In this document: piece after piece, positions 6,281 to 61,476 of the stretch
Layout: each line of letters starts with the position of its first letter
How positions within the stretch are numbered: the first letter of the stretch is position 1
NCBI RefSeq assembly: GCF_012974865.1
Contig: NZ_CP043633.1
Coordinates: forward strand, 3,676,083 to 3,740,082
Source of the DNA: Nonlabens sp. Ci31
GTDB lineage: Bacteria > Bacteroidota > Bacteroidia > Flavobacteriales > Flavobacteriaceae
Length of the DNA stretch: 64,000 bases
Direction: 5' to 3'
Program-made: the position numbers and the translations under genes
The notes under the pieces: generated by a model
Database searches by the model: none
The model's input: only the letters and a program-made list of their open reading frames with translations
Told to the model about the DNA's origin: nothing

Positions 6281-7359
6281 TATCCTATTTCATTACCGTA
6301 TTTATCCATAGCTGCATTGCGTATTTCTTTAATTTCTTGTTCGGCAGTTTTAGGAATAATCATCAATACATCATCTTGATCTATAATAATATAGTCTTCC
6401 ATTCCTTGCAAGATGACTTTTTTTCCGGCAGCTGTTCGTACCATATTCCCATGTGAATAGATAGACGTAAGGCTGGCATTGATAACAGCATTTGCGTCTT
6501 CGTTTTTATCGAGTTTGTCATAGAGTGATCCCCAAGTCCCTAAATCGTTCCAGGAGAATCGTGCTGGCAGTACAAAAACAGCATCGCTTTTTTCCATGAT
6601 CGCATAATCCACCGATATATTCTCGACATTCGGATAGTTCTCTTCCAGCCATTGGGTTTCCTTATCTGTGTTGAAAACCGATAAGCCATTATTAAATAAG
6701 GAAATTAATTGAGGTTGCGCTTTCGCGAAAGCGGATACCACGCCAGCTACATTCCATATAAAAATCCCTGCATTCCATAAAAAATTACCTGCAGCAATAA
6801 ATTCCTGCGCCGTTTTTAAATCTGGCTTTTCTCTAAATTGAGATACTTTTTTGATCTGGTTTTCTTCCTTGTTGTATTCAATATACCCATAACCCGTATT
6901 AGGTGAAGTAGGCTGAATACCAAGGGTCATTAATGCTTGTGGATGCGCTGCACAGAAATCAAAAGCAGTAGCGAGGTCTTCATTAAAAATATCTTGTTCA
7001 GCGATGTAGTGATCACTTGGAGCGACGATCATGCTGGCCTCTGGATTCATTTTTTGAATCTTTAAAGCTGCCAGTAAAATACAAGGCGCTGTATTGCGCA
7101 TAGCAGGCTCTGCAACAATATTGCTGAAATCCATTTCTGGAAGTTGCTCCTTTACAAGGTCTACATAAGCGTCGTTAGTGAGTACCAGAATATGTTGTGA
7201 AGGAATTTGTTGCTGTAACCGGTCAAAGGTCATTTGCAACAAAGACTTCCCCATACCTAGCATGTCGTGAAACTGCTTGGGAAAAGCTTGCTTACTTACA
7301 GGCCAAAAACGAGAACCGACGCCACCGGCCATAATTACGGCATATTTATTATTACTCAT
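6280..7359 (-). CDS. manC: Mannose-1-phosphate guanylyltransferase
   Basis: This cytosolic enzyme makes GDP-mannose from mannose 1-phosphate and GTP, feeding glycan and exopolysaccharide synthesis. The nucleotidyltransferase signature MAGGVGSRFWPVSK lies at the N-terminus, and the family's APSDH and FREKPD motifs are present. At about 359 residues it is the short form without the phosphomannose-isomerase domain of bifunctional ManC/AlgA. The start at 7359 is preferred over an upstream in-frame ATG at 7428. It gives the normal family N-terminus, and its ATG overlaps the upstream TGA (ATGA), typical of coupling. The gene contains an in-frame copy of the CGCTTTCGCGAAAGCG palindrome (6718-6733, encoding AFAKA). 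Confidence 0.88.
   Translation of the reverse strand: MSNNKYAVIMAGGVGSRFWPVSKQAFPKQFHDMLGMGKSLLQMTFDRLQQQIPSQHILVLTNDAYVDLVKEQLPEMDFSNIVAEPAMRNTAPCILLAALKIQKMNPEASMIVAPSDHYIAEQDIFNEDLATAFDFCAAHPQALMTLGIQPTSPNTGYGYIEYNKEENQIKKVSQFREKPDLKTAQEFIAAGNFLWNAGIFIWNVAGVVSAFAKAQPQLISLFNNGLSVFNTDKETQWLEENYPNVENISVDYAIMEKSDAVFVLPARFSWNDLGTWGSLYDKLDKNEDANAVINASLTSIYSHGNMVRTAAGKKVILQGMEDYIIIDQDDVLMIIPKTAEQEIKEIRNAAMDKYGNEIG
6718..6733. repeat. Genome palindrome copy 1 (in manC)
   Basis: Exact CGCTTTCGCGAAAGCG, in frame, encoding AFAKA. Confidence 0.95.
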
Positions 7360-7952
7360 ATCTTTAAAACTTCTACTTGCGCATTGGGCTGAAAAAGGTA
7401 CACCTTTCCAGAGCTTATCTCTACACAACGGTAGCGCTTGCGCAACTTGTTTCCTTTTTGAAATTTCTTACCGCTAGGCCCTAAAAATATACTGCCTTGC
7501 TGCAGTTCAAATATATAGCTTTTATCAGTTTCTGGGTCGTAAGATTTTAAAGCAACACTCATCATGGCATCGGTATCGCTACTGGCTTTAGGGTTTTTAA
7601 AATGTCGCGCTAAAATGGGCAGCAAATCGTTGGGAAATATATCTGGACGCAAAAAGGGCAACATAAGCTGTTGAAAGGTGTGTTTCCACTCTACTCCGTG
7701 AGGTTTGATAAGGCGCCCATATTTTTGAAAGGCCACTAAATGAGCTATTTCATGGACAAGAGTAATTAAGAACCTGTAGGTGTTGAGATTTGCGTTTATG
7801 GTAATCGCATGGGAACCATCAGGGTTTTTACGGTAATCACCGTGTCTGGTCTTGCGCTCATCTACAATTTTGAGGTGTACGTGATACTGCTCCAGTAGTG
7901 CCGTTAATGGCGCCACAGCAAGATGTGGTAAATACTTATCTAAAACACTCAT
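7356..7952 (-). CDS. SprT-like zinc metalloprotease-family protein
   Basis: The 198-residue product carries the SprT signature HEIAH (within TLVHEIAHLVAFQKYG, about residues 66-81), a zinc-binding and catalytic motif. It is preceded by the family's N-terminal ARTRHGDYR-like segment, here KTRHGDYRKNPDG. The C-terminal part is rich in basic residues and aromatic strands but lacks the CxxC zinc-ribbon pairs of some SprT proteins. SprT-like proteins are related to the DNA-protein crosslink protease Spartan; the bacterial function is not settled. It is the first gene of the run with manC and DUF389. The 187 bp upstream separates it from the divergent LOG gene. Confidence 0.8.
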   Translation of the reverse strand: MSVLDKYLPHLAVAPLTALLEQYHVHLKIVDERKTRHGDYRKNPDGSHAITINANLNTYRFLITLVHEIAHLVAFQKYGRLIKPHGVEWKHTFQQLMLPFLRPDIFPNDLLPILARHFKNPKASSDTDAMMSVALKSYDPETDKSYIFELQQGSIFLGPSGKKFQKGNKLRKRYRCVEISSGKVYLFQPNAQVEVLKI

Positions 7953-8139
7953 AAATACTGATAAAATTCTACTGTTGCGATATTAAAAATAATTAGAGAA
8001 GTAACACCTGTTTTGAGCTATAATTATTAATTAAAAATCAAATAAACTCATTAATTATAGATGCTTTGTCAGTATGTTTGTTAGTCCGTCAACCAAATTA
8101 TAGATTTTTAATATTACTAGTAAAACTTAAAGAATTAAA

Positions 8140-8829
8140 ATGAGAAAAGAAGTAGGAGAAAAAGGTTGGAACGATTTAAAAACCAACGATAGCTGGGCGA
8201 CCTTTAAGATTTTATCTGAATTTGTAATGGGATTTGAACGCATGAGCCGTATAGGTCCTTGTGTCTCTATATTTGGTAGTGCCCGATTAAAACCAGATAA
8301 TGAATACTATCAACTCGCGACAGAAATAGCTGGAAAAATTGTAGAAAATGGTTACGGGGTGATTACCGGCGGCGGCCCTGGAATTATGGAAGCAGGTAAT
8401 AAAGGAGCGCACCTTGCTGGAGGAACTTCTGTAGGATTAAATATTGCATTGCCATTTGAGCAACATGACAACCCGTATATCGACAGCGATAAAAGTCTTG
8501 ATTTTGACTACTTTTTTGCTCGTAAAGTAATGTTTGTCAAGTATTCTCAGGGATTTGTAGTCATGCCAGGCGGATTTGGAACACTGGACGAGTTGTTTGA
8601 AGCGATCACTCTTATTCAAACTAATAAAATAGCTAAATTCCCTATCATTCTTGTAGGTACCGAATTCTGGAGCGGTTTATTGGAGTGGATAAAAGGAACA
8701 CTAGACAAGAAATTCTTTACCGTTTCTCCAAATGATATTGATCTTTTACATGTTGTAGACACCAGCGATGAAGCTGTAGCTATTATTAATGAATTTTATG
8801 AAAAGTATAGTTTGAGTCCTAATTTTTAG
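8140..8829 (+). CDS. LOG-family nucleotide phosphoribohydrolase (TIGR00730)
   Basis: The 229-residue product has the two hallmark motifs of the family: GGGPGIMEAGNKGA (about residues 85-98) and PGGFGTLDE (about 147-155), which form the nucleotide site. LOG proteins cleave nucleoside 5'-monophosphates, releasing the base and ribose 5-phosphate. In plants this activates cytokinins, while in most bacteria the substrate is a purine nucleotide. The Rossmann-like fold is complete. It is a single gene, divergent from the SprT-like gene, with an AT-rich 187-bp spacer in which no clear promoter was assigned. Confidence 0.88.
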   Translation: MRKEVGEKGWNDLKTNDSWATFKILSEFVMGFERMSRIGPCVSIFGSARLKPDNEYYQLATEIAGKIVENGYGVITGGGPGIMEAGNKGAHLAGGTSVGLNIALPFEQHDNPYIDSDKSLDFDYFFARKVMFVKYSQGFVVMPGGFGTLDELFEAITLIQTNKIAKFPIILVGTEFWSGLLEWIKGTLDKKFFTVSPNDIDLLHVVDTSDEAVAIINEFYEKYSLSPNF

Positions 8830-8960
8830 AAAAATTAAAATATAAAGCTGCATTTTGTGTTATCTATAAATACCATGCTTTAATATTTCTACAAACCGTA
8901 AAATGGAGTTTTTTTAACTGCTAATTATTCCCTAATCCAGCAAAAGCAAATCTTATATAA

Positions 8961-11786
8961 ATGATTAAAAAGCTCGCGCTCTTATTGCTTTTGTTTTCCA
9001 GTTTCCTGCACGCGCAGCACAAAACACAAATTATCGCTCATTTAGACAGCGATAAGGATGTACTTACCATAAATCAAAAACTAGAGATCTATAACAATAG
9101 TGATGTCACCTGGGATCATATCATGCTGCTGGATTGGGCAAATGCCTTTTCTTCTAATCAGACGCCACTAGCCACCAGATTTGCAGAAGATTTTAAGAAT
9201 AGATTTCAGTTTGCCATTGATGAAGATCGAGGCAGTACTACCTTTACTGCAACTGATAGTCTTACTAATGATTACCGACTGGAACGATTAAAAGGACATC
9301 AGGATATCATCAAACTTTATTTTAAAAAGCCGTTACCTGCTGGAGCGACTCGTGAGGTGGAAATCAACTACGCAGTTAAAATTCCCGAAGACGACTTTAC
9401 CGGTTATGGTAAAAGCTCCAATGGAGAGTATTCTTTAAAATATTGGTATTTACATCCTGCACCTTTTATAGAGGGTAAATGGGATTATTATTCACACAAG
9501 GATCTGGACGATTTTTATGGCGCTCCTATGGATTTCTCCGTCTCTCTTCATTTACCAGTGACCCATCGCGCCATAAGCAGCTTGACAACCGGATTAGAAA
9601 CAAAACAAACCCAGCGCAACAGCTATTTATTTACAGGAGAACAACTGGATGCTGCTGTATTACACCTAGTGCGCAACACCGATGCTTTTAAAACTTATAG
9701 CGTTCCTGGAATTAATGTTATTACCGATATAGAAGACTTGGATGTACCACTAGAAATGAAAGTCATTTTTAACGATAGAATTGCTAGCTTTTTACAAAGT
9801 AGATTAGGGAGTTTTCCTGAAAAAGATCTCTTCGTCTCCGACCGGTACTACCGTGAAAATCCAGTTTATGGATTGAGCTCTTTGCCTAGTTTTATAAATC
9901 CGTTCCCGGCTGGTTTTACTTATGAGATAAAGATGTTAAAGACCTTATCTCGTAAATGGGTGGAAAGAGGTATTCACGTAAATCCTAGAGAAGAAGCCTG
10001 GGTAAAACAATCTATCATGATTTATTTAATGATGGAATACCAGCAGTTGTATTATCCTGACCTAAAAATAGGCGGCAAACTCAGTGACGTATGGGGAATA
10101 AGAGGCTTTAATGTCGCCCAACTTAAGTTTAACGAAAGCTATCCTTTATTATATTTAAACAGCGCTAGACTTAATCTCGATGAAGCCATTAACACCCCTG
10201 CAGATCAACTTGTTAAGTACAATCAGCAATTAGGAATGCCTTTTAAGGCTGCTATAGGACTCCGCTTTTTAAACGATTACTTAGGAGATGACAGTCTGGA
10301 AAAATCGATTAGGGCCTTTTATTTAGAAAACCAACAAGGACGTACGAAGGCTTCTGTTTTCAGACATATACTGGATAAAAATGCGTCTAAAAATACCGAC
10401 TGGTTTTTTGATGACTATATCACCACTCATAAAAGGCTGGATTGGAAAATCAATCAAGTTAAAAAGACAGCCGATTCCGTATTCTTTAGAATAAAAAACA
10501 AATCCCAACTCCAGATTCCAGTACCCGTCTATTTACTGGATAAAGATAGTATTATTACTAAGAAATGGATTGAAGGAGTCAAGGAAGATAGTTTGATTTC
10601 GCTTCCGCGAAAGCGTGCTAATAGGATAGCCATCAACTATGAACAACTAATTGCAGAATTTAATCCTCGTGATAATTATAAAACATTAAAAGGTTTTCCT
10701 TCTTTAAACAGACCTTTAGAATTTAGGTTGTTCAAGGATGTGGAAGACCCAGAGCGATCACAAGTATTTTTAATGCCTGACGTAGAGTTTAATATTTATG
10801 ACGGACTTACGCTGGGAACTCGTTTTTACAATGGTAATTTACTCCCTAAACCTGCACGCTACAGTATCAAACCTGGTTATGGAACTAATTCTAATAGACT
10901 GGTTGGCTCTATAAGTTTTGGGTATGCCCATCCCGTACAGAACCGTGACGAACGTTTATACGAAGTGAAGTACGGAGTAAGTGCCAACACATTTTCCTAT
11001 GCTGACGACTTATTGTACCGACGTGCAAGTGGCTGGCTACAATTTAACTACAGGCCAAAAGACTTGCGCAAAAATAAAAGACAAAGTCTTAGCTTTAGAA
11101 ATATATATGTAGATCGCGACCGTGATCCATTAAACTCTGTAAATGAACCCGACTATAATGTCTTTTCTATAAATTATTCACAATCTGATGATAATCTCAA
11201 ACGCGTTTTTAATTACCATATAGGTACTGAAGTATCAAGTAACTTTACTAAAGCCACCTATAGATTGCGATGGCGCAAATTATTTAAAGATAACAGACAG
11301 TTAGATTTCAGAGTTTTTGGTGGTGCATTTCTAACGAACAATTCTCAGGCGAGTGGCAACTTTTTTTCCTTTGCATTGGATCGTCCAACAGATTATTTAT
11401 TTGATTATAATTATTATGGTAGATCAGAAGACAGCGGTCTTTTTTCACAACAGCTAGTCGTTGCCGAAGGAGGTTTTAAATCCCAACTAGAGCCTGCTTT
11501 TGCAAATGAATGGATAACCACTGCAAACGCTTCATACAGTATATGGAATTATATTCATGCTTATGGAGATATAGGTTTTGTAAAAAACAAAGGTCGCGAT
11601 GCAAAATTTGTTTATGATTCTGGTATAAGATTGAACTTTTTACAGGATTATTTTGAACTTTATTTCCCCATATACAGCAATAATGGATGGGAAATAGCAC
11701 AAGATAATTACGATGAAAAAATACGTTTTATTGTCACTTTGGATATCAACACTTTTGTAAAACTTTTTACCAGGCGTTGGTACTAG
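8961..11786 (+). CDS. M1-peptidase-like outer-membrane protein lacking the zinc site
   Basis: The 941-residue product starts with a signal peptide (MIKKLALLLLLFSSFLHAQ). The N-terminal ~500 residues have the layout of an M1 aminopeptidase: a beta-rich lobe, then a helical domain with YEIKMLKTLSRKWVERG and a later WVKQSIMIYLMMEYQQLYYP segment. No HExxH zinc motif is present anywhere, so peptidase activity is unlikely. The last ~330 residues alternate polar and aromatic strands and end in RRWY, consistent with an outer-membrane beta-barrel. Flavobacteria commonly carry such proteins, but I know of no defined role. A one-mismatch copy of the palindrome at 10600-10615 encodes part of SLPRKRANR. 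The gene is followed closely by a promoter for the E1 gene. Confidence 0.75.
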   Translation: MIKKLALLLLLFSSFLHAQHKTQIIAHLDSDKDVLTINQKLEIYNNSDVTWDHIMLLDWANAFSSNQTPLATRFAEDFKNRFQFAIDEDRGSTTFTATDSLTNDYRLERLKGHQDIIKLYFKKPLPAGATREVEINYAVKIPEDDFTGYGKSSNGEYSLKYWYLHPAPFIEGKWDYYSHKDLDDFYGAPMDFSVSLHLPVTHRAISSLTTGLETKQTQRNSYLFTGEQLDAAVLHLVRNTDAFKTYSVPGINVITDIEDLDVPLEMKVIFNDRIASFLQSRLGSFPEKDLFVSDRYYRENPVYGLSSLPSFINPFPAGFTYEIKMLKTLSRKWVERGIHVNPREEAWVKQSIMIYLMMEYQQLYYPDLKIGGKLSDVWGIRGFNVAQLKFNESYPLLYLNSARLNLDEAINTPADQLVKYNQQLGMPFKAAIGLRFLNDYLGDDSLEKSIRAFYLENQQGRTKASVFRHILDKNASKNTDWFFDDYITTHKRLDWKINQVKKTADSVFFRIKNKSQLQIPVPVYLLDKDSIITKKWIEGVKEDSLISLPRKRANRIAINYEQLIAEFNPRDNYKTLKGFPSLNRPLEFRLFKDVEDPERSQVFLMPDVEFNIYDGLTLGTRFYNGNLLPKPARYSIKPGYGTNSNRLVGSISFGYAHPVQNRDERLYEVKYGVSANTFSYADDLLYRRASGWLQFNYRPKDLRKNKRQSLSFRNIYVDRDRDPLNSVNEPDYNVFSINYSQSDDNLKRVFNYHIGTEVSSNFTKATYRLRWRKLFKDNRQLDFRVFGGAFLTNNSQASGNFFSFALDRPTDYLFDYNYYGRSEDSGLFSQQLVVAEGGFKSQLEPAFANEWITTANASYSIWNYIHAYGDIGFVKNKGRDAKFVYDSGIRLNFLQDYFELYFPIYSNNGWEIAQDNYDEKIRFIVTLDINTFVKLFTRRWY
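10600..10615. repeat. Genome palindrome copy 2 (one mismatch, in the M1-like gene)
   Basis: CGCTTCCGCGAAAGCG; encodes part of LPRKR, a different frame from most copies. Confidence 0.8.
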
Positions 11787-11793
11787 CTTTGCC

Positions 11794-11825: not shown

Positions 11826-11830
11826 CTATA

Positions 11831-14257: not shown

Positions 14258-14261
14258 GAAT

Positions 14262-15125: not shown

Positions 15126-16035
15126 GAAAACTCTTTTATGTATTGTTGGCCCTACTGGTATAGGAAAGACAGCTTTGAGTATCGCTTTCGCGAAAGCTTA
15201 TAACACTTCCATTATCTCGTCAGATTCCAGACAGTTTTATAAAGAAATGACTATTGGGACAGCTGTTCCAGAAAAAGAAGAGCTGGAGGCGGCACCACAT
15301 TATTTTATTCAAGATAGAAGCATTCACGAAGACTATTCGGTAGGGGATTTTGAGCGAGATGTAATGAAAAAATTACCAGATCTTTTTAAAGAGAATGATC
15401 TTGTTGTCATGGTAGGAGGTAGTGCGCTATATGAAAAAGCAGTGACTCATGGCCTTGATGCGCTTCCAGACGTACCGCTTGAAATTCAAGAAGAATTGAA
15501 GGAAAAGTTAGAAATTAAAGGTGTTTTTTGGCTGCAAGAAGAATTGAAAAAAAACGATCCAGAATATTTTGAAACGGTAGACATTCACAATACACATAGA
15601 CTGCTTAGAGCGATAGGTATCTTTCGCGCAAGCGGTAAAAAGATGAGTGAATTAAGAACAGGAAAAGCCCAAGAAAGAAACTTTAATATCCTTAAAATAG
15701 GCCTAGAAGCTGATCGTGAAGATCTTTATGACCGCATCAACCATCGTGTAGATGTCATGTTGGAAAGAGGTCTTGAAAAAGAAGCCCAAGAACTCAAAGA
15801 CCACAAAGAGTTAAACGCATTACAGACCGTAGGCTATAAGGAATTCTTTGAATATTTTGCAGGAACATGCGATTTTACAGAAGCTGTAAGACTTATAAAA
15901 CGCAATACCCGTCGATTTGCAAAACGACAGCTTACTTGGTACCGCAAAGACGAGAGCGTTACTTGGTATCACTACAAAACTCGCCATACAGAGATAGTAG
16001 AGCGAGTGAGTGAACAACTTATGGATGTACGATAG
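15118..16035 (+). CDS. miaA: tRNA dimethylallyltransferase
   Basis: MiaA adds a dimethylallyl group to N6 of A37 in tRNAs reading codons that start with U. The 305-residue protein has the P-loop GPTGIGKT (residues 9-16), the family motif SSDSRQFYKEMTIGT, the GGSALYEKA segment and the C-terminal NTRRFAKRQLTWYR signature. A palindrome copy at 15183-15198 sits just after the P-loop and encodes AFAKA. Here the native family sequence is already similar (ALAK), so the motif has been accommodated. The gene converges with rprY, leaving four bases between the stops and no terminator hairpin. Confidence 0.95.
   Translation: MTKKTLLCIVGPTGIGKTALSIAFAKAYNTSIISSDSRQFYKEMTIGTAVPEKEELEAAPHYFIQDRSIHEDYSVGDFERDVMKKLPDLFKENDLVVMVGGSALYEKAVTHGLDALPDVPLEIQEELKEKLEIKGVFWLQEELKKNDPEYFETVDIHNTHRLLRAIGIFRASGKKMSELRTGKAQERNFNILKIGLEADREDLYDRINHRVDVMLERGLEKEAQELKDHKELNALQTVGYKEFFEYFAGTCDFTEAVRLIKRNTRRFAKRQLTWYRKDESVTWYHYKTRHTEIVERVSEQLMDVR
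15183..15198. repeat. Genome palindrome copy 3 (in miaA)
   Basis: Perfect 14-bp core GCTTTCGCGAAAGC at 15184-15197; encodes AFAKA. Confidence 0.95.
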
Positions 16036-16039
16036 CTAT

Positions 16040-19941: not shown

Positions 19942-20943
19942 TTATTTAAAAAATAATTTAGGAAATGCAGTTGTCTCTTCCTGTTTTAAGATTGTAATTT
20001 TTAACCAAGATTTTAAAAATCCTGTTCCATAAGCATAGAACTGAATTAGTGTTGCAAAAACAGAACTCAAGCCTATAGACACCCCATTTTTAATAGAGGA
20101 GTCAATAAACAAGATACTGAAATAAAACAGATATAAGCTCAAAAGCAACTGATTACCTAAAACAGATAAAATGACCGCTAGAAATAGAGAAACACAAAAT
20201 AAGGAAGGGAACCAATAGGTGATACGCTTAGTACTGGGGTGCCATTTGTTAAGAATTACTCTTACTTTACCAAATTTATGCACCTGTTTATAAAATAACT
20301 TCCAAGATATGCGTCTTTCATGATATACATAAGCTTCCTTAATCAATACGGTATCAAATCCGCGTTGCCACAACCTGATCGTTAAGTCTGGATCTTCCCC
20401 TGGATGAATATTTCCAAAACCCATAGTTTCTTGAAAGGCCTTTTTACTCAGTCCCATATTAAAACTACGCGGCTGGAATTTACCTAATTTTTCGCTCCCA
20501 CCTCTAATTCCTCCTGTGGTAAGAAAGGAAGTCATGGAATAGTTAATCGCCTTTTGAAGGCTACTAAAACTCTCATGAGCAGCATCTGGACCTCCGTAAC
20601 AATCTACATAATTATTTAATAAGTAGGCATCTACCACCTTGAGGTAATGACTAGGTAGCACACAGTCGCTATCCAGTATAATAAAATAATCTCCAGTAGC
20701 CTTCTTCATACCAAAATTCCTAGAGTCTCCAGGGCCCGAATTTGGTTTGTAAAAATAGTTGATGGTTAAGCTTTCGCGAAAGCGAGAACATACCATTTCA
20801 CTGCTCAATTCAGATCCATCCTCAATGATAACTACTTCAAAATCTCTTTCAAAGACTAATTGAGAAAGACTAATAAGTAATTTTTCTATCTCTTCAGGTC
20901 TGTTGAAAACCGGTATAATAAAGGAGTAATGGATTGCATTCAC
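19942..20943 (-). CDS. Family 2 glycosyltransferase with C-terminal membrane segments
   Basis: The 333-residue product has a GT-A domain (about 1-230). It shows FIIPVFNRPEEI at the N-terminus, a DSD metal motif in FIILDSDCVLP, and a GEDPDLTIRLWQRG acceptor-side motif. Two or three hydrophobic segments follow (about 240-320). It probably transfers a sugar at the inner face of the membrane; donor and acceptor are unknown. The GTG start at 20943 lies five bases after a TATTTTTG box. A palindrome copy at 20769-20784 is read in a different frame from most others and encodes RFRES. Confidence 0.85.
   Translation of the reverse strand: MNAIHYSFIIPVFNRPEEIEKLLISLSQLVFERDFEVVIIEDGSELSSEMVCSRFRESLTINYFYKPNSGPGDSRNFGMKKATGDYFIILDSDCVLPSHYLKVVDAYLLNNYVDCYGGPDAAHESFSSLQKAINYSMTSFLTTGGIRGGSEKLGKFQPRSFNMGLSKKAFQETMGFGNIHPGEDPDLTIRLWQRGFDTVLIKEAYVYHERRISWKLFYKQVHKFGKVRVILNKWHPSTKRITYWFPSLFCVSLFLAVILSVLGNQLLLSLYLFYFSILFIDSSIKNGVSIGLSSVFATLIQFYAYGTGFLKSWLKITILKQEETTAFPKLFFK
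20769..20784. repeat. Genome palindrome copy 4 (in the GT2 gene)
   Basis: Perfect 14-bp core at 20770-20783; read in the frame giving RFRES. Confidence 0.95.
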
Positions 20944-35664: not shown

Positions 35665-36474
35665 ATGAAAAAATATAAGTTAGAAAATTGGAGGGGCTTT
35701 TGTAGCTGTTCCGCTTTCGCGAAAGCGGTAGTATTATCCACCATCCTGCTCGTTTCCTGTAACAAAAAAGAGTACCAGTTAAAAAAAGTAGTTGGAAGTA
35801 AAACTGCCATAGACAGCAGCCTAACTAATGTGCAAGAAATAGAGGATTATATCGCTCCCTTTAAAAAGTCTTTAGATGTACAAATGAACGAGCAATTGAG
35901 TTACAATCCTGTTTCCATGAACAAAAGCGATTATAAACTCAATACCCCTATCGGAAATATGATGGCAGCTATTGTTAGGGCACAAGGAGAACCCGTTTAC
36001 AAATCTAGAACTGGAAAAAACATAGATATCGTATTACTTAATAGTGGAGGAATCAGAGCTGGTATGCCTGCTGGTCCAGTAACCATGCGTAACGCTTATG
36101 AAATCATGCCTTTTGACAATGAAATCGTTATCGCTGAGCTAACTGGAGAACAGGTAAACGAACTCATCAATTATCTTATCGAACGTAAAAGTGCACATCC
36201 TATTGACGGGCTACAAATCTTACTCCACGAAGATGGAACTGCAGCAAGCGTTCTTATTAATGGCCAGCCGCTAGACAAAGCTCACGTATATAAGGTTGCG
36301 ACAAATGATTACCTCTATACCGGTGGTGATAACATGAGCTTCTTTAAAGACACCCCGCTTACCACCATAGATTATAAAATCAGAAATGCGATGATCGATT
36401 ACTTCAAAAAGGTCGATACCTTAAAGTTTAAAAGAGACCACCGATTTGACTATGCAAACTCATTAGTTCCCTAA
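35665..36474 (+). CDS. 5'-nucleotidase C-terminal (substrate-binding) domain lipoprotein
   Basis: The 269-residue protein corresponds to the C-terminal domain of UshA/5'-nucleotidases, which binds the nucleoside. It shows LNSGGIRAGMP, the AYEIMPFDNEIV segment and YKVATNDYLYTGGDN. The N-terminus is a lipoprotein signal ending LLVSC near residue 32, and it contains an inserted palindrome copy (35712-35727, AFAKA) within or just before the hydrophobic stretch. The catalytic metallophosphatase domain is encoded separately by the next gene, 9 bp downstream. The two products probably act together in the periplasm or at the surface. Confidence 0.85.
   Translation: MKKYKLENWRGFCSCSAFAKAVVLSTILLVSCNKKEYQLKKVVGSKTAIDSSLTNVQEIEDYIAPFKKSLDVQMNEQLSYNPVSMNKSDYKLNTPIGNMMAAIVRAQGEPVYKSRTGKNIDIVLLNSGGIRAGMPAGPVTMRNAYEIMPFDNEIVIAELTGEQVNELINYLIERKSAHPIDGLQILLHEDGTAASVLINGQPLDKAHVYKVATNDYLYTGGDNMSFFKDTPLTTIDYKIRNAMIDYFKKVDTLKFKRDHRFDYANSLVP
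35711..35728. repeat. Genome palindrome copy 6 (in the 5'-nucleotidase C-domain gene)
   Basis: Extended 18-bp perfect palindrome CCGCTTTCGCGAAAGCGG within the signal-peptide coding region; encodes AFAKA. Confidence 0.95.
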
Positions 36475-42310: not shown

Positions 42311-44608
42311 ATGAATTCGCGTTTTAAGATCCTTTTTCTAGCCCTTATTTTATTGGTAAGCTGCCATAAGCCAAAAGTAGATTTGATAAGTCCATCCATA
42401 ATCCCAGCCCCACAATCGCTGCAAGTAAATCCTGGACATTTTACCATTGATCTGTCGACCGTCATCAGCAATGGAGATGATTTCACACATTCCGTGACCT
42501 TTCTAAAGGATTTTTTAAGACAAAGAACTGGCCGAAACTGGGAAACGAAATACGCCTCTGAAAATGTCATCAGCTTTGAATATGACGGCTCCATCATCAA
42601 GCAAGAAGGATATACCCTAGATATTAATAAGCAGCACATCCTCATAAAATCTAGTGCCGACGCCGGAGCTTTTTATGCGGTGCAATCCTTGATCCAGCTG
42701 ATGCCTTTTGAGTTGGAAAAATCTGTAATCACTAACGTCATTTACCTACCAGCGGTCACTATAAAAGACGAACCCCGTTTCTCTTATCGAGGCATGCATC
42801 TCGATGTGTCGCGCCACATGTATGACGTAGAATTCATCAAAAAATATATAGACGCTATGGCCATGCTCAAGATAAATACCTTTCACTGGCATCTTACAGA
42901 CGACCAAGGCTGGCGTATTGAAATTAAGAAATACCCGAAGCTTCAAGAAATTGCAGCTTATCGCGACAGTACTTTGATAGGACATTATAACGACTCACCA
43001 CGTTTATATGATGCTACAAAGTACGGCGGTTTTTATACACAGGAAGAAATTCGTGAGGTGATCGCTTTCGCGAAAGCGAGACAGATCAACATCATCCCAG
43101 AAATAGAAATACCTGGTCACGCACAAGCCGCCATAGCTGCCTATCCAGAATTGGGCTGTACAGGGAAAAAAATAGGCGTAGCAACAGAATGGGGCGTTTT
43201 TGAAGATATTTATTGTCCGAACGAAGCAACCTTTATATTCCTTGAAAACGTACTAGACGAAGTCATGGAATTATTCCCATCGCCATACATCCACATAGGT
43301 GGTGATGAAGCGCCTAAAACACAATGGAAAACAAGTCCGGTTGCGCAACAAGTGATTCAAGAAAATGGACTAAAAGACGAGCACGAACTCCAATCCTATT
43401 TTATCCAGCGCATGGAAAACTACTTAAATTCTAAAGGCCGCAACATCATAGGATGGGATGAAATTCTAGAAGGTGGACTGGCGCCCAATGCAACGGTTAT
43501 GAGCTGGCGAGGCACGAAAGGTGCCATTGAGGCCGCAAAATCAGGTCACGATGTGATCATGACACCTACTTCGCATGCTTATTTTGACTATTATCAAAGT
43601 GAAAACAAAAACGAACCCACCGCGATAGGCGGATTCCTAGCATTAGAAAAAGTCTATCATTTTAACCCGATTCCTGAAGAACTCACTGCCGAAGAAGCAA
43701 AACACATTCTAGGCCCACAAGGAAACATCTGGACAGAATACATGACTACTAGCGAGCAAGTAGAATACATGGCTTTTCCACGTATGCTGGCTATGAGCGA
43801 GGTGGCCTGGACTAAAGCAGAAAACAAAAACTATTCTAGTTTTATAAATCGTGTGGAATATTTTCATCAAAGAATGGATGCGCTGGGTATCAATTATGCC
43901 AACCACTTATACGAAGTCAGCGGCTTTCTAAATGACCAGCAACAGTATGAATTAAGCACCGCATCTTTCGGAAAAGAAATACGTTACACCACAGATGGCT
44001 CCAAACCAACCACCTCTTCTACCCTTTATAAACAAGCTATTCCTTTTACAGAAAACCTATCCGTAAATGCAGGTGTTTTTAAAGACGGGAAACTATTAGG
44101 TAAAGTCTTTACACAAGACTTGCTCTACCATAAAGGAATAGGCGCCCTAATTACCATTAATAAAGAACCCAGTACATCTTATCAAGGCAGTGGCGCACAA
44201 GGTTTAATAAACGGAATTAAAGGAAGTGACTCGCGTTATGGAGATAGCGAGTGGCTGGGCTTTTGGGGAGAAGATATTGAGATTGACATCGAGTTTAAAG
44301 AACCTATTTTAGTTGACGAAATCAAATTGAGGTTTTATCATGCGCCGGGGCAGTGGATTTATGCTCCAGAAAAATATTATATTTTCTTAGAAACCAAAAA
44401 TGGGATTATAAGTGATTTAGTTAAATTGCCTAAAAATGATGAAACTCTAATATTATCGAATTACAATTGGAAACGCTTTAAAGGCTTTGAAGACAAAAAA
44501 ATTAATGCACTCAAAATTAATATACCCAACTATGGCATCATCCCAGACGGCAAACAAGGTGCTGGAAACAAAGCTTGGACTTTTATAGACGAAATCATCA
44601 TCAATTAA
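42311..44608 (+). CDS. GH20 beta-N-acetylhexosaminidase lipoprotein
   Basis: The 765-residue protein removes terminal N-acetylhexosamine from glycans by substrate-assisted catalysis. It has a lipoprotein signal (LALILLVSC, Cys18), a GH20b domain (about 30-155), and a catalytic TIM barrel (about 160-500) with FHWHLTDDQGWR and HIGGDEAPKTQW, where Asp332 and Glu333 are the catalytic pair. A chitobiase-type C-terminal domain (about 530-610, IRYTTDGSKPTTSS) and a probable F5/8-type C domain at the end follow. A palindrome copy at 43063-43078 encodes AFAKA. It leads a tight run ending in beta-mannosidase, suggesting shared glycan breakdown. Confidence 0.92.
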   Translation: MNSRFKILFLALILLVSCHKPKVDLISPSIIPAPQSLQVNPGHFTIDLSTVISNGDDFTHSVTFLKDFLRQRTGRNWETKYASENVISFEYDGSIIKQEGYTLDINKQHILIKSSADAGAFYAVQSLIQLMPFELEKSVITNVIYLPAVTIKDEPRFSYRGMHLDVSRHMYDVEFIKKYIDAMAMLKINTFHWHLTDDQGWRIEIKKYPKLQEIAAYRDSTLIGHYNDSPRLYDATKYGGFYTQEEIREVIAFAKARQINIIPEIEIPGHAQAAIAAYPELGCTGKKIGVATEWGVFEDIYCPNEATFIFLENVLDEVMELFPSPYIHIGGDEAPKTQWKTSPVAQQVIQENGLKDEHELQSYFIQRMENYLNSKGRNIIGWDEILEGGLAPNATVMSWRGTKGAIEAAKSGHDVIMTPTSHAYFDYYQSENKNEPTAIGGFLALEKVYHFNPIPEELTAEEAKHILGPQGNIWTEYMTTSEQVEYMAFPRMLAMSEVAWTKAENKNYSSFINRVEYFHQRMDALGINYANHLYEVSGFLNDQQQYELSTASFGKEIRYTTDGSKPTTSSTLYKQAIPFTENLSVNAGVFKDGKLLGKVFTQDLLYHKGIGALITINKEPSTSYQGSGAQGLINGIKGSDSRYGDSEWLGFWGEDIEIDIEFKEPILVDEIKLRFYHAPGQWIYAPEKYYIFLETKNGIISDLVKLPKNDETLILSNYNWKRFKGFEDKKINALKINIPNYGIIPDGKQGAGNKAWTFIDEIIIN
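43063..43078. repeat. Genome palindrome copy 7 (in the GH20 gene)
   Basis: Exact 16-bp copy, encodes AFAKA. Confidence 0.95.
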
Positions 44609-45984: not shown

Positions 45985-48472
45985 TATTCTATTACTCTTA
46001 ACGCTACTTGCCATTTCTTGTTCTGAAAAAACGGCTAATGTGGAGAGACACTATCTTGAAACGGATTGGACTCTCTTTCAAGGTGATGACGAGAAACTAA
46101 TCAGTGACAGCATCAGCTTACCTTCAACAGTTCACAGTGCTTTATTGCCACAAATAAAACATCCTTTTAAAGGGAGTAATGAAGATAGCTTGCAATGGAT
46201 CACCGAGAAAGACTGGACGTATAAAACAACATTTAAGGTGGGTAATGAAACCTTAGAGAAGGAATATGTCAATTTACATTTTAAAGGTATAGATACCTAT
46301 GCATCCATCCTACTCAATGGCATCGAAATCCTACAAACAGACAACGCTTTTAAACATTGGAAAACAGACGTAAAACCATATTTGAAAGAAGAAAACCAGC
46401 TGATTATAGCTATACAATCTCCGCTTCAAATCGAAGAAGAAAAAGCCGCTGCAAATCCATACAGCTTACCAGAAGGTAACCGGATCTACACTCGTAAGGC
46501 TCAATTTCAATACGGTTGGGACTGGGGACCACATCTCAACACTATGGGGATCGTAAAACCAGTATATCTCGAAGCTTACGATCAATTCAAAATAGAAGAT
46601 GTCTATATCAAGCAAAACTTTATACAAGATTCTATAGCAAATCTTACGGCCCAAATCAAATTTTCCAAACCTATAACAGAGCAACTCACCTACCAAATCA
46701 AGGTAAACGATAGCCTCTTCCCTATTAAGATCACAGACTCCCTATTGCAATCTAACAGTTATGCAACTCAAGAAGTTCATTTTGAAATCAATCAGGTACA
46801 GCTTTGGTGGCCGCACAATATTGGTGAACCTTATTTGTATGAGATGGAAGTTTTGGTTTCAAAAGATGGAGAATTAATGGACTCCAAAAAGCTCAAAAGA
46901 GGAATACGTACCATAGAGTTGATTAATGAGCCTGATGATGCTGGAACTTCCTTCTTTTTTAAGGTAAATGGCGTTCCTATTTTCATGAAAGGGGCTAATT
47001 ACATACCGCAAAACTCCATGCAGGATCTCGTCACAGACCAGCATTATGAAAATTTGCTAAGCGATGTAGTAGACGCCAATATGAACATGCTGCGCGTTTG
47101 GGGTGGTGGAAGTTATGAGAATGACATTTTTTATGATAAATGCGATGAAAAAGGTATTTTGATATGGCAAGACTTTATGTTTGCTTGTGCGATGTATCCT
47201 GGAGATGCACGCTTTCGCGAAAGCGTAACAGAAGAAATAACACAACAAATTACCAGATTGAGAAATCACAGCAGCATTGCCTTATGGTGTGGAAATAATG
47301 AAACTAGTGAAGCCTGGAACAATTGGGGCTGGCAAGCAGGAAGACCGCAAGCAGAACGGGATAGTATTTGGGAAGATTATCGTGCTGTTTTTCAACTAGC
47401 AATGCCTAAATATATAAGCGAACTCACCAAAGAACCTTATTGGGAAAGCACGCCAAAGTTAGGTCGTGGGAACCCGCGTTATGAATTTGAAAGCGATGCG
47501 CACGACTGGCGTGTATGGCACGATGCCTATGCGTTTGAGCATTTTGAAGAACACGTACCTCGATTTATGAGCGAATTTGGATTCCAGTCGCATCCCTCTT
47601 ATAAGACCGTAGAATACATCAATAAGGACGGAAGTCTCAACATTCATTCAGCAGATTATGCCTCGCATCAAAAACACGAACGTGGCAACGAACTCATACG
47701 AGAGTATATGGCCAGAGACTTTCCTGTTCCTACAAGCGATGAAGATTATGTGTATATGAGTCAACTCCTGCAAGCCTACGGAATGTCAAAAGGATTCCAA
47801 GCGCACCGACGCGCCAGACCTTATAATATGGGAACTTTATACTGGCAACTCAATGATTGCTGGCCTGCGGTGAGCTGGTCCAGTATTGATTATTTTGGGA
47901 ATTGGAAAGCTTTACACTATCAAGCAAAACGTGATTTTGAAAATTTGTTAATTAGCAATTATGTAAAAGACGGTGTTTTACACAGCTATGTGGTTAATGA
48001 CGATCTTTATGACCTCACTAGTGGTTACACCCTAATGATCATGGACTTTTACGGTAAAGAATTGTACCAAGAATCTTTTGTAGGAACTGCGGGAATGAAT
48101 TCTAGTAATAAATTTCACCATATCGATTTAGGTAGTTTGGATATAGACCTGTCAACTGTATATGTGTATACAGAGTTTGGCTCTAGTAGGACCATCGATG
48201 TGCTGGTCCGTCCTAAAGATTTGAAATTACCAAAGGAAGAACTATCCCTGAAAAGTCTTAAAACCAAAGATGGATATCGGGTTACTTTAAAGTCTGCTAT
48301 TTTTGTAAAAGATGTTTTTTTATATAGTAATCTAAAAGGACATTTTTCAGACAACTTTTTTGACCTAGAACCTGATATGGAAAAGACACTTTTTTTTGAG
48401 ACAGATAGTGATGTAGCGCCTGTGTTTAAATATAAAACTTTGAATGGGTTAATCAAGTCTCTCCAGCCATAG
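45974..48472 (+). CDS. GH2 beta-mannosidase lipoprotein
   Basis: The 832-residue enzyme should remove terminal beta-mannose residues. It has a lipoprotein signal (LLLTLLAISC), an N-terminal sugar-binding jelly roll (about 25-200), an Ig-like domain, and a TIM barrel. The acid/base Glu443 lies in WCGNNETSEAW and the nucleophile Glu534 in RFMSEFGFQSHPS. The motif QYGWDWGPHL is typical of beta-mannosidases. A palindrome copy at 47210-47225 encodes RFRES. Together with the GH20 enzyme four genes upstream it could dismantle the Man-GlcNAc2 core of N-glycans or related glycans. Confidence 0.92.
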   Translation: MRISILLLLTLLAISCSEKTANVERHYLETDWTLFQGDDEKLISDSISLPSTVHSALLPQIKHPFKGSNEDSLQWITEKDWTYKTTFKVGNETLEKEYVNLHFKGIDTYASILLNGIEILQTDNAFKHWKTDVKPYLKEENQLIIAIQSPLQIEEEKAAANPYSLPEGNRIYTRKAQFQYGWDWGPHLNTMGIVKPVYLEAYDQFKIEDVYIKQNFIQDSIANLTAQIKFSKPITEQLTYQIKVNDSLFPIKITDSLLQSNSYATQEVHFEINQVQLWWPHNIGEPYLYEMEVLVSKDGELMDSKKLKRGIRTIELINEPDDAGTSFFFKVNGVPIFMKGANYIPQNSMQDLVTDQHYENLLSDVVDANMNMLRVWGGGSYENDIFYDKCDEKGILIWQDFMFACAMYPGDARFRESVTEEITQQITRLRNHSSIALWCGNNETSEAWNNWGWQAGRPQAERDSIWEDYRAVFQLAMPKYISELTKEPYWESTPKLGRGNPRYEFESDAHDWRVWHDAYAFEHFEEHVPRFMSEFGFQSHPSYKTVEYINKDGSLNIHSADYASHQKHERGNELIREYMARDFPVPTSDEDYVYMSQLLQAYGMSKGFQAHRRARPYNMGTLYWQLNDCWPAVSWSSIDYFGNWKALHYQAKRDFENLLISNYVKDGVLHSYVVNDDLYDLTSGYTLMIMDFYGKELYQESFVGTAGMNSSNKFHHIDLGSLDIDLSTVYVYTEFGSSRTIDVLVRPKDLKLPKEELSLKSLKTKDGYRVTLKSAIFVKDVFLYSNLKGHFSDNFFDLEPDMEKTLFFETDSDVAPVFKYKTLNGLIKSLQP
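47210..47225. repeat. Genome palindrome copy 8 (in the beta-mannosidase gene)
   Basis: Exact 16-bp copy, read as RFRES. Confidence 0.95.
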
Positions 48473-50813: not shown

Positions 50814-51827
50814 ATGACTACGCACGAGAAATACATGCAGCGCTGTTTGCAACTGGCACAAAATGGCTTGGGAGCTACTTATCCTAATCCGCTGGTGGGG
50901 AGTGTGATCCTGTCAGATACTGGTGCAGTTCTTGGAGAGGGCTGGCATAAAAAATCTGGAGAACCGCATGCTGAAGTAAACGCAGTGCGGGATGCAGAGC
51001 AGAAGGGTTATGGTGAAGACGCTTTCGCGAAAGCGGTACTATACGTCAACCTAGAACCCTGTTCACACACTGGAAAAACACCAGCATGCGCATCCATGAT
51101 CATCAAAAAAGGCTTTAAAAAAGTAGTTGTGGGAACACTGGACCCACATGAAAAAGTAGCTGGAAAAGGTGTTGCCATGTTAGATGCAGTAGGAATAGAC
51201 GTTACTGTAGGTATTTTAGAAGAAGAATGCAACGAGCTCAACAAGAGGTTTTTTACTTTTCACAAAAAACAACGTCCTTATATTATTTTAAAATGGGCCG
51301 AAACCAGCGATGGCTTTATAGCACCAACTCAAAAGGATGAGCAAAAACCCATCTGGATCACCAACAAGCACTCGAGACAACTCGCACACCGCTTAAGAGC
51401 TGAAGAAAATGCTATTTTAGTAGGTGCCAAAACCGTTCTAGACGACAATCCATCACTCACTTGCCGCGACTGGAAAGGAGTTCACCCGACCCGCATTGTA
51501 CTGGATTCAAGAAATAGCATCTCAGCAGATTTTAAAGTTATGGACGACACTGCTCTTACCATAAAACTTGATCACTCCTCAACTGATGTGAATGAAATTA
51601 TTGAAGAACTTTATAAGAACGGCCTTCAGTCCGTAATTATTGAAGGTGGTACGGCCACGATTCAAGCTTTTATAGATGCTCAGCAATGGGATGAAGCCTA
51701 TCAATTTATGGGAACTGAAGTGTTGTTTTACCAAGGTCTAAAAGCACCTGTCTTAAAAGGAAATTACCATATCAAAGAACGCAATACCATCAAAAGTGAT
51801 GTGTTGAAAATATACAGAAACACATGA
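50814..51827 (+). CDS. ribD: Bifunctional riboflavin deaminase/reductase
   Basis: RibD carries out the deamination and side-chain reduction steps of riboflavin synthesis. The product of about 337 residues has a zinc-dependent deaminase domain (about 1-145) with TYPNPLVGSVI, the His-Ala-Glu motif PHAEVNAV and the cysteine motif NLEPCSHTGKTPAC. A reductase domain follows (about 150-337, PYIILKWAETSDGF and IIEGGTATIQAF). The ATG at 50814 is preferred over a TTG at 50805 that lies in the -7 box. A palindrome copy at 51020-51035 encodes AFAKA within the deaminase domain. The stop overlaps the next start (ATGA). Confidence 0.93.
   Translation: MTTHEKYMQRCLQLAQNGLGATYPNPLVGSVILSDTGAVLGEGWHKKSGEPHAEVNAVRDAEQKGYGEDAFAKAVLYVNLEPCSHTGKTPACASMIIKKGFKKVVVGTLDPHEKVAGKGVAMLDAVGIDVTVGILEEECNELNKRFFTFHKKQRPYIILKWAETSDGFIAPTQKDEQKPIWITNKHSRQLAHRLRAEENAILVGAKTVLDDNPSLTCRDWKGVHPTRIVLDSRNSISADFKVMDDTALTIKLDHSSTDVNEIIEELYKNGLQSVIIEGGTATIQAFIDAQQWDEAYQFMGTEVLFYQGLKAPVLKGNYHIKERNTIKSDVLKIYRNT
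51020..51035. repeat. Genome palindrome copy 9 (in ribD)
   Basis: Exact 16-bp copy, encodes AFAKA. Confidence 0.95.
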
Positions 51828-52690
51828 TTTGGTTAGTTCTAAGTATAGCTACATCGAGCTTTCTATATGTGATTTTTAAGTATTTTGAAGTATTTAAAGT
51901 ACATACACTTCACGCCATTATTGTGAATTATATCGTTGCTTGCGCAACGGGCTTTATAGCTTATGGAAGGGTGCCAGAAGTAGAAGAAATCATTTATGCC
52001 GACTGGTTGTTTTACGCTTTATTTTTGGGAGCTTTATTCATCGCCATTTTTAATGTCATGGCATTAACCAGTCAGAAAAATGGCTTATCAGTCGCTGCTG
52101 TATCCGGTAAAATGTCGCTAGTTATTCCGGTAATAGCAGGCATCTGGTTGTATGAAGAATCCATAGGATGGATGAAGGTAGCAGGGATTTTTCTCGCTTT
52201 GATATCGGTTTATCTTACTTCTGTAAAGTCCCGACAGGGCTTAAAATTTAACAAGAGCTTGTTGCTGCTTCCCATTATTTTATTCCTAGGAAGTGGCGTG
52301 ATAGATACCACCATTAAATATGCAGAGATCATGCACGTTCCCAGCGGTGACGAATCTTTATTTAGCGCGATTTGCTTTGCTATGGCTTTTGTAATCGGAA
52401 TTTTGGTCCTTATCTATGAGGCGACTCAAAAGCGTTTTTTAACGTTAAGATCTGTGATTGCCGGGCTTGTTTTAGGAGTCCCTAATTACTTCTCTATTTA
52501 CTTTATTATAAAGGCGCTCAAGAACGGAATGGAAAGCAGTGTGGTTTACCCTATCAATCACGTGGGAACCGTACTTTTCACTTCTTTCTTAGGAGTTCTC
52601 ATTTTTAAAGAAAAACTAATTCCTAAAAACTATATTGGGATTGTGGTTGCGATTGTGGCTATTGTTATGATTGCTTTCGCGAAAGCCTAA
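51824..52690 (+). CDS. EamA/DMT-family transporter
   Basis: The 288-residue product has about ten hydrophobic segments in the two-repeat EamA layout, for example NYIVACATGFIAYG and ISVYLTS in the first half and VYPINHVGTVLF and FLGVLIFKEKL in the second. The substrate is unknown. It overlaps ribD by four bases. Its last codons are supplied by a palindrome copy (52673-52686), so the protein ends AFAKA. The final 264 bp of the gene are duplicated at 61213-61476. Confidence 0.88.
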   Translation: MIWLVLSIATSSFLYVIFKYFEVFKVHTLHAIIVNYIVACATGFIAYGRVPEVEEIIYADWLFYALFLGALFIAIFNVMALTSQKNGLSVAAVSGKMSLVIPVIAGIWLYEESIGWMKVAGIFLALISVYLTSVKSRQGLKFNKSLLLLPIILFLGSGVIDTTIKYAEIMHVPSGDESLFSAICFAMAFVIGILVLIYEATQKRFLTLRSVIAGLVLGVPNYFSIYFIIKALKNGMESSVVYPINHVGTVLFTSFLGVLIFKEKLIPKNYIGIVVAIVAIVMIAFAKA

Positions 52691-59472: not shown

Positions 59473-60423
59473 AATGCTAATTGTTTTGAGAGTTAGTTTA
59501 AGATATTGTTAAACTAGACTTAGTTCAAGAAATAATACCATTTTAAAGCAGTTATTAATTTTATTAGAATTCAATATATACACAATCGCTTACTGCTCAG
59601 ATCAATATATTATATTTATAACACATAATATTTAGAATTATTCGACATAAAAGAAGTAAAACTGATAATTATTAAGAGTAGTAAAGGGAACGTGATCTTT
59701 TTTTATGAACATTTGATAACTATATATAAGCCAAATTTAAAAAAAAATCATGTAACAATTATTTTAAGAAAAAAATGCTCCAAATAATCATCCCCGATAA
59801 TGACCTGTTTTTCTGTAAAATTCGCCCTCCTTATACTTTGTAAATGTTAGTTAATTATAACACAGAAAATTGATGGAATAATAGCGCCTGTTAAATTGTT
59901 TATTTAGGGTAAATACAGATAAAGCTACAACATATGATAGCTCCTAATGCAGATTTGAAATCATTGTTAAGAAAACTAAAATCTTATATTCGATAATTGT
60001 TCAAATAATAGTGGACAATATCATTTTGTAACTATTTATAGAAAACGCTAGTTATGCAGTAGTTAAACATTCATATATCGCATAAAATTCTTTTTTTCTC
60101 CTTTGCTCATCATAGAATATGATCAAAACTATTATTATACTATTTTTTATGACTAGGCAAATGACAATAAATAAATAAACTAAAATTTAATTTATTGTCA
60201 TTTTTTAACCAAACGCTAGCTTCAAAATTCTGTCCATATTTAAAATGCTTTTAGCTTTTCGCCCCTATTTTATTTTGATTTTAATCAGGTTTTTTTCGAT
60301 GTAAGTATATACCTGTTTTATCGTTTCATATAAATGCTATCATCACGAACAAAATCAATTTTTCTATTCTTATAATATCTTATAGGTGTTTGTTCCATAT
60401 CAAATCCACAAGATTTTAAAGAC
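59473..60423. other. AT-rich region upstream of the second giant gene
   Basis: About 950 bp with no supported gene. The composition is markedly AT-rich compared with the neighbours. It contains an inverted repeat at 60159-60203 and runs into the IS30 remnant. The promoter of the giant gene should be near 59480-59520 on the minus strand, but no good TAnnTTTG box was found. Confidence 0.5.
60159..60203. repeat. 14-bp inverted repeat, terminator-like
   Basis: AAATGACAATAAAT at 60159-60172 is exactly complementary to 60190-60203 around a 17-nt loop, and a T-run follows on the plus strand. It could be an old terminator or the end of a decayed element. Confidence 0.5.
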
Positions 60424-61200
60424 TTAAAACAAATGCTGTGTTCCACTCATAACTGCAACACACATATTATTTAGGAACTCAAAGGGGTTATTATAATTAA
60501 ACTTTATAACCGGTCTATATTTTAGTAATCGTTCTAGTTCTTTTATTCTCTTGTCTGTAAGCTTCCTAAGATCTATTTTCTTAGGCAAAACCTTTTATTG
60601 ACACCGGTTCTATTTTCTATAGTTCCTTTATCCTTAAATGTATAAGATCTAGTAAAATACGTTTTAACATTTAGGCCTCTGGCTATTTTATGATGGTAGG
60701 CAAATTTTTTTCTATTGTCATAAGTGATCGTTTTTATCCATGAAGAGTTAAAATTGGTCAGCCTGCTTTTCATTTTTTCATAAACCTCGTAAGCATTCTT
60801 GCTGCCTAATTTTTCCATCATGGTAATTAGAGTTATTCGATCGGTCATTACTAATGACAATGATTTATGTTCTTTCCCCTCATTAGGTCAACTTCTATAT
60901 CTCCAATACGAGATCGCTCTGAGACTATATCTGGTCGATATTCAACACCACCTATTCCTGTTATAACAGCTCTGATATTTTTTACGATATTAGGCTTCCG
61001 TCTGCGCCCGATATGACGTAAGTGTTCTTATAGACTTTTATAGTCAACTTGATCGCCATGATTACTATGTTTTACAGTCCAGAATCCAATTGTATATAGT
61101 TTGATGACATAAGCAGGTCTCAGATTGTTTTGTTAACCCTGCGGATATAAGTTAGGGATTCCACTTTTCGTAAATCAACAGTCCAGCTAATTGCTTTTTT
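60424..61200 (-). pseudogene. Decayed IS30-family transposase
   Basis: Translated fragments in shifting frames match the IS30 transposase plan from N- to C-terminus: HIGRRRKPNIVKNIRAVI and RSRIGDIEVDLM (about 61020-60890), then DRITLITMMEKLGSKNAYEV, TITYDNRKKFAYH and KGTIENRTGVNKRF (60860-60573). After another frameshift come KIDLRKLTDKRIKELERLL and FNYNNPFEFLN to a stop at 60424. The catalytic DDE neighbourhood is altered (TYDNRKKF for the usual TADNGKEF). Several stops and shifts show it is inactive. It lies at the right edge of the inserted block, next to the right-hand direct repeat. Confidence 0.8.
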
Positions 61201-61212
61201 AATGCATCACTC

Positions 61213-61476
61213 CAAAAGCGTTTTTTAACGTTAAGATCTGTGATTGCCGGGCTTGTTTTAGGAGTCCCTAATTACTTCTCTATTTACTTTATTATAAAGG
61301 CGCTCAAGAACGGAATGGAAAGCAGTGTGGTTTACCCTATCAATCACGTGGGAACCGTACTTTTTACTTCTTTCTTAGGAGTTCTCATTTTTAAAGAAAA
61401 ACTAATTCCTAAAAACTATATTGGGATTGTGGTTGCGATTGTGGCTATTGTTATGATTGCTTTCGCGAAAGCCTAA
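61213..61476 (+). pseudogene. Truncated duplicate of the EamA transporter gene
   Basis: The last 87 or so codons of the transporter at 51824-52690 are repeated here, in frame to the same stop, but the 5' two-thirds of the gene is missing. A start codon within the fragment (61240) would give only a 78-residue piece with three membrane segments, which is unlikely to function. It is a by-product of the event that created the direct repeats. Confidence 0.9.

Follow-up and report, generated by a model that had tools for sequence, protein, structure and literature searches.

A repeated palindrome in the terminal 64 kb of a Nonlabens genome

The window analysed here, the final 64 kb of the 3.74-Mb single-contig genome of Nonlabens sp. 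Ci31 (G000), carries repeated copies of a 14-bp palindrome, GCTTTCGCGAAAGC. Searching it with up to two mismatches returned 13 matches where 0.12 are expected, comprising nine perfect and two one-mismatch copies, which are set out below, and two-mismatch copies at 15620 and 63373. An earlier note on this DNA had reported the nine perfect and two one-mismatch cores, at coordinates that proved right to within 0–2 bases, and its statement that chance predicts far less than one copy holds even when two mismatches are allowed. Its assignment of most sites to the frame that reads AFAKA, and of fewer to RFRES or a PRK-containing frame, likewise agrees with the translations. In the list, orthologue counts include only those orthologues whose alignment covers the site; ORF stands for open reading frame.

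6719..6732: perfect site in a nucleotidyltransferase-family gene, minus strand; AFAKA; perfect in 5/5 aligned Nonlabens orthologues
10601..10614: one-mismatch site in an ORF at 8961–11786 with no Pfam match; SLPRK; perfect in 8/9 aligned Nonlabens orthologues (SLSRK/TLSRK)
15184..15197: perfect site in miaA (IPP transferase); AFAKA; perfect in 18/20 Nonlabens, other residues in 75/75 motif-less relatives
20770..20783: perfect site in a glycosyltransferase family 2 gene, minus strand; RFRES; perfect in 9/9 aligned Nonlabens orthologues
31791..31804: one-mismatch site in a CoaBC-like gene, minus strand; AFAKA; perfect in 6/6 aligned Nonlabens orthologues
35713..35726: perfect site near the N-terminus of a 5′-nucleotidase C-domain protein; AFAKA; perfect in 4/4 aligned orthologues
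43064..43077: perfect site in a GH20 family gene; AFAKA; perfect in 3/3 aligned orthologues
47211..47224: perfect site in a GH2 family gene; RFRES; perfect in 3/3 aligned orthologues
51021..51034: perfect site in a ribD-like gene; AFAKA; perfect in 3/4 aligned orthologues
52673..52686: perfect site in the last codons of an EamA-family gene; AFAKA; perfect in 3/3 aligned orthologues
61459..61472: perfect site within a duplicate of part of the 52673 region; flanking sequence identical to that at 52673

The last of these reflects a duplication of the EamA gene end, together with its site, to a place ~8.8 kb away. The mismatch at 10601 also occurs in G010, and because eight of the nine orthologues are perfect and G010 shares the same change, this is probably a decayed site. 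The earlier placement of all copies in coding sequence stands for the window, the duplicated fragment excepted, and does not extend to the genome, in which 28 of 111 sampled sites lay outside ORFs of at least 80 aa.

The palindrome fills the genomes of Nonlabens and two further genera

Across the complete genome of G000, GCTTTCGCGAAAGC was found 487 times, far above the ~0.005 copies that base composition alone predicts by arithmetic, while the reversed control gave 0. High copy numbers were also found in all 23 Nonlabens genomes (288–857), in all 18 genomes searched from the genus designated g206 (369–905) and in the one genome of genus g190 (G211, 408). Within a family sample of 299 genomes from 236 genera, at least one copy was present in 61; the filled genomes were three Nonlabens, G211 and the g206 genome G227 (857 copies), and the other 294 held 0–19. 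The 16-mer form was detected in 11 of 395 genomes of the phylum, exceeding two copies only in the window's genome, among rows that include neither g190 nor g206. Around miaA, just five of 80 stretches carried the word, all from Nonlabens and at similar positions.

Chance or codon usage was rejected as the cause, given that the 59 other palindromes with the same half-site letters (60 including the motif) had 0 perfect copies in a G000 sample of 864 kb out of 3,740 kb (23%). No dispersed 12-mer palindrome that might serve as a dialect word was found in 75 motif-less stretches from other genera (4.6–20.9 kb, 51 of them at least 20 kb). At least 120 stretches of viral contigs contained the word; among the 80 listed, most had a single copy and four had two or three, and closer inspection covered these four. 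Two Nonlabens phages (71 kb) had 0 sites. Copy number was not significantly tied to genome size, a weak positive link being possible (Spearman 0.40, P 0.18, for 13 g206 genomes; 0.19, P 0.42, for 20 Nonlabens genomes); genomes less than 90% complete, 5 of 18 and 3 of 23, respectively, were excluded from these tests. The literature searched, with subscription journals mostly outside that search, yielded no description of the 14-mer or the 12-mer.

Sites are conserved as DNA and arise by substitution

Alignment of ten window sites with Nonlabens orthologues gave a perfect match in 52 of 55 comparisons, including the site at the gene end and sites in three frames. Across six Nonlabens genomes, 208 ordered comparisons, which are not mutually independent, comprised 183 perfect matches, 13 with one mismatch, 10 with three or more and 2 with gaps. 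This conservation was exerted at the DNA level: identity at fourfold sites, 0.993 within the core, was 0.66 one base outside it, 0.80 at 2–5 bp and 0.57 at 6–13 bp, and fell to a background of 0.36 at 14–22 bp (0.42, or 0.419, beyond 60 bp). Ordinary windows encoding the same residues retained all 14 bases in just 11.6% of cases.

The two Nonlabens genomes with an imperfect miaA site carried AFSKA, and AFAKA with other codons. Outside the genus, all 75 motif-less relatives and all 10 further genomes had other residues at this place, with an unchanged distance to the GKT motif. The earlier note would have been contradicted by a genome-wide count near the Markov expectation or by the same residues without the palindrome in distant genera, and neither was seen: the count is far above expectation, and at miaA, AFAKA occurred in 0/75 motif-less relatives and 0/8 low-count genomes versus 19/20 Nonlabens, a comparison with motif-less genera that covers miaA only, three further sites having been compared outside Nonlabens with G211 and G227 alone.

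Because codons were replaced in register, with gaps in only 2 of 208 comparisons, the alignments indicate that sites arise by substitution, not insertion. The earlier suggestion of acquisition as opposed to protein selection was thus correct in that sites are gained and mistaken in implying insertion. The same observations bear on a self-spreading palindromic element, akin to Rickettsia palindromic elements or REP sequences, which the earlier note had also entertained. High copy number and copies within coding genes would suit such an element, yet the in-register replacement of codons and the constant distance between site and GKT motif in 75/75 motif-less relatives render it very improbable.

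A symmetric footprint surrounds the core

The optimal form of the word was CGCTTTCGCGAAAGCG, its left flank rich in T and its right flank in A, and the footprint spanned ~40 bp. Cytosine at position −1 was present at 86–90% of sites in Nonlabens, 77% in g206 and 52% in g190; thymine at −3 and −4 was followed by T-rich, C-poor sequence as far as roughly −13 to −18, with a mirror image on the opposite side; the pattern was weaker in g190. This pattern was seen in every reading frame and in sites outside ORFs, the 111 sampled G000 sites being distributed over AFAKA (48), LSRK (19), RFRES (16) and positions outside ORFs (28).

At coding sites, the left and right flanks did not covary over positions 1–4, 5–13 or 14–30, the first flanking base alone doing so (0.72 vs 0.63). 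Since these flanks vary independently except at the first base, the pattern fits a duplex read via two half-site contacts, not a hairpin. Sites outside ORFs showed covariation of the flanks at positions 1–4 (P 0.017) and 13 (P 0.003). An RNA hairpin or cruciform was accordingly not supported by the coding-site flanks, and a hairpin role outside ORFs is possible.

The pooled sample comprised 244 perfect copies and 32 with one mismatch. The mismatches of the latter fell at positions 1, 2, 5 and 6, with one exception at G7 and none at T3 or T4, and the commonest was C6>T (11/32, 9 of these in G000). One-mismatch copies in the G000 sample retained the flank pattern (score 6.3, vs 6.7 for perfect copies and 0.26 for random sequence) and, for that reason, would represent decayed or still-used sites. 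Three-mismatch copies did not retain it. Given its hundreds of copies, their unusually even spacing and the retention of every letter amid changing surroundings, GCTTTCGCGAAAGC is probably a previously unrecognised address label read by some protein.

One candidate reader is a homodimeric chromosome-organising or division-coupled protein resembling Noc, SlmA or MatP and acting chromosome-wide, with each site directly selected, the chief alternative to the uptake reading given below and one that we regard as possible but doubtful. It would account for the perfect palindrome and symmetric footprint, a symmetry that it explains better than uptake does, for the duplex reading suggested by the independent flanks of coding sites, for the strictness of the core at T3, T4 and, with its single exception, G7, and for the strong conservation of sites.

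A different proposal treats the word as a side effect of DNA methylation coupled with biased mismatch repair, which would create and maintain it, a model set out for HIP1 of cyanobacteria in the accessible text of PMC4390886. The word is indeed a highly iterated palindrome, and C6>T, which affects the outer CpG, is the change that deamination of 5-methylcytosine would give. Usual methylase targets are, however, shorter than a 14–16 bp core with a 40-bp footprint, and the inner words showed no enrichment in G000 beyond the motif itself (TCGCGA, 72 vs 67 expected; CGCG, 659 vs 872), leaving this origin improbable.

As a separate observation, TTCG was strongly under-represented outside the motif in the G000 sample (1248 vs 2180 expected) and in other Nonlabens stretches (434 vs 860), a deficit less marked in g206 and g190 and in motif-less genera.

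Sites avoid one another and are absent from some stretches

Neighbouring sites showed mutual avoidance below ~1.5 kb in all four genomes tested, gaps shorter than this numbering 2 against 17.5 expected in G000, 3 against 18.2 in G211, 16 against 32.1 in G319 and 6 against 26.0 in G001. The coefficient of variation of spacing was below random in three of the four, G001 being not significant (P 0.24). These analyses used the first 100 of 487 sites in G000, 100 of 408 in G211, 100 of 899 in G319 and 94 of 762 in G001, for which six of 100 rows were dropped (three places on two short contigs, both strands). Counts per 20 kb had a mean of 2.56 and a variance of 1.49.

Mutual avoidance is a further property that the chromosome-organising explanation would accommodate, but several observations speak against it. 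No origin–terminus trend was detected in the 23% sample of G000 at four candidate origins, two defined by cumulative skew and two at or near a parB gene, all of them candidates only (Spearman −0.15 to 0.12, P 0.35–0.64), whereas passages of PMC4726725 give ~70 Noc sites and 24–52 SlmA sites, under-represented near the terminus. Moreover, stretches of 20–34 kb without any site occur, and copy number is not clearly linked to genome size. Finally, 13 of 15 motif genomes encode one ParB-family protein each, with no extra member; the second such protein in the remaining two (616 aa) is of a kind also found in non-motif genera.

Sites were enriched outside ORFs in G000 (28/111 vs 16% of bases, P 0.013) and in G227 (13/30 vs 7.4%, P 7e-8), with a nominal excess in other Nonlabens (10/89 vs 5.9%). 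For these counts, coding sequence was called from ORFs of at least 80 aa for the 111-site sample of G000 and at least 100 aa for the flank and other-genome set, and base fractions were taken at 100 aa.

Of 40 stretches sampled in G000, three were siteless. Two of these look like acquired DNA, with genes for IS110, for the reverse transcriptase of a group II intron, or for TIR or HipA proteins; the third contains an aminotransferase gene, a CheB/CheR-kinase gene and genes without known function. The siteless stretch at C1:2050001-2070000 (L270) adjoins tmRNA, bears TIR, HipA and ABC/SMC-like genes and looks like a defence-type island.

The word appears to have accumulated twice

A tree of RpoB from 30 genomes placed those with the motif in two clades, Nonlabens and g190 with g206, which were united in 0% of 200 bootstrap trees. 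None of the 13 g190 or g206 sites alignable to Nonlabens stretches was shared (65 Nonlabens comparisons, several stretches per site, within open frames of at least 300 bases only), and at the 8 places where Nonlabens window sites could be aligned in G211 and G227, none was present. Between g206 and g190, 2 of 6 sites were shared, or 2 of 7 in the reverse direction.

The exception lies downstream of rpoB, where a site follows the stop codon by 7–40 bp in 13/13 motif genomes versus 0/17 others (L336-L365); it may go back to a common ancestor or mark a preferred position. Because site positions are otherwise unshared and the RpoB clades are separate, comparison of the genomes points to one word with two separate accumulations, one early origin followed by turnover of site positions being the less likely alternative. 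In G165, sister to g190 and g206, a three-mismatch form of the palindrome follows rpoB (L340:1463-1476), perhaps left over from a system since lost. Inverted repeats of other kinds that contain GCGAAAGC follow rpoB in some non-motif genera.

A proposed self-DNA signal resembling uptake sequences

The reading that we tentatively favour, at somewhat less than even confidence, is that the palindrome is a protein-read self-DNA word that works like an uptake signal sequence and has accumulated by drive. In addition to a protein reader, we infer drive as opposed to selection at each site, with uptake as the driving step. The word would be the recognition site of a symmetric DNA reader common to Nonlabens and the second clade of two genera; this reader would favour word-bearing DNA, most plausibly during the uptake of DNA from kin, and homologous replacement would then drive the word upward wherever protein function permits, resulting in a density of about one word per fragment length (4–8 kb). 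The earlier note had listed an uptake, chromosome-organising, methylation or repair site, with HIP1-like behaviour, among its options, and this range fits the copy number, the conservation of the core as DNA and the even spacing.

Uptake sequences are described as arising by point mutation, being under-represented in coding and newly acquired DNA and having AT-rich flanks in the accessible part of PMC7811141, and as evenly spaced in that of PMC1939737. The present word is similar to the uptake signal sequences of Pasteurellaceae and the DNA uptake sequences of Neisseriaceae in its hundreds of copies, even spacing, point-mutation origin and AT-rich flanking support, and perhaps in a scarcity in newly acquired DNA, which the two acquired-looking siteless stretches and the two phages may reflect. 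It differs from them in being palindromic, with a 14–16 bp core, in its spacing of 4–8 kb as opposed to ~1 kb and in belonging to another phylum; uptake is proposed here by analogy. Singly mismatched forms of known uptake words are also unexpectedly rare according to passages in PMC1939737, and for this reason the small number of one-mismatch copies is no evidence for or against the uptake reading.

ComEC and DprA domains were found in 30/30 motif genomes tested. Several points weigh against uptake, beginning with the presence of these domains equally in 10/10 non-motif genomes tested, which means that they do not discriminate; among the 40 genomes, DprA is in two pieces in G331. The sites of G211 were not enriched outside ORFs (2/23 vs 8.4% of bases), and synonymous identity was not clearly raised near sites, a small rise being confined to 100–300 bp in the one 64-kb region analysed. 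In PMC1939737, even spacing is argued both ways, with Karlin attributing it to replication, repair or compaction, and known uptake words are described as non-palindromic; a 14–16 bp palindrome with a mirror-image footprint suits an intracellular homodimer. Competence is not universal across the family, according to part of PMC7965970, and no report of Nonlabens transformation appeared among the top 10 of 919 matches in the literature searched. A comparison of ParB-family proteins did not turn up the reader protein, which may belong to another family.

A bolder extension of the uptake reading, which is conceivable and more tentative, is a palindromic self-DNA code of Bacteroidota, in which a homodimeric receptor passed between the two clades and its strict word filled both, creating a uniformly spaced address system without a known counterpart.

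Comparison with other iterated sequences further delimits the word. It shares with HIP1 (GCGATCGC) the character of a highly iterated palindrome within genes across a lineage, but it is longer, has a ~40-bp footprint and has no known cognate methyltransferase, although no search was aimed at that enzyme. Like Noc and SlmA sites, it is palindromic, as sites of a dimeric reader are, and the Noc consensus is also 14 bp; unlike them, it has ~4–40 times more copies, no terminus depletion was seen and no ParB paralogue was found. Chi, a non-palindromic and oriented sequence, occurs about once per 5 kb; the word resembles it in density and, unlike Chi, lacks orientation. The best-known genome signals of the uptake type come from two bacterial families, and how HIP1 arose is still disputed. 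The word adds another iterated signal, from a further phylum, whose sharp core, measurable footprint and, apparently, two accumulations make it directly testable how a short word comes to fill a genome.

Copies in low-count genera

In the low-count genomes examined, copies were mostly clustered in what look like transferred islands. Among the matches listed, copies were clustered on three contigs each in G307 and G072 and were more scattered in G165 and G063, and because of these last two, island transfer does not account for every low-count genome. All 16 copies in G097, among the matches listed, fell within one 78-kb region. This island of ~80 kb (C3:32331-110029; L379-L383) is apparently mobile and encodes a Strawberry-notch-type helicase and an N6-methylase-like protein alongside RND-efflux genes. 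It also has a series of small ORFs that, where scanned, lack Pfam names, and it carries the word at host-like density. Its genes have relatives in G072, G307, G236 and G108, at high identity across Flavobacteriaceae genera, and two genes of the region are at least 80% identical across all matching genera. Matches to the region in plasmid records are annotated as "efflux RND transporter permease subunit"; we infer that the substrate is metal. The region looks like mobile DNA that came from a lineage with the motif, and the word may mark the donor lineage of islands in other genera.

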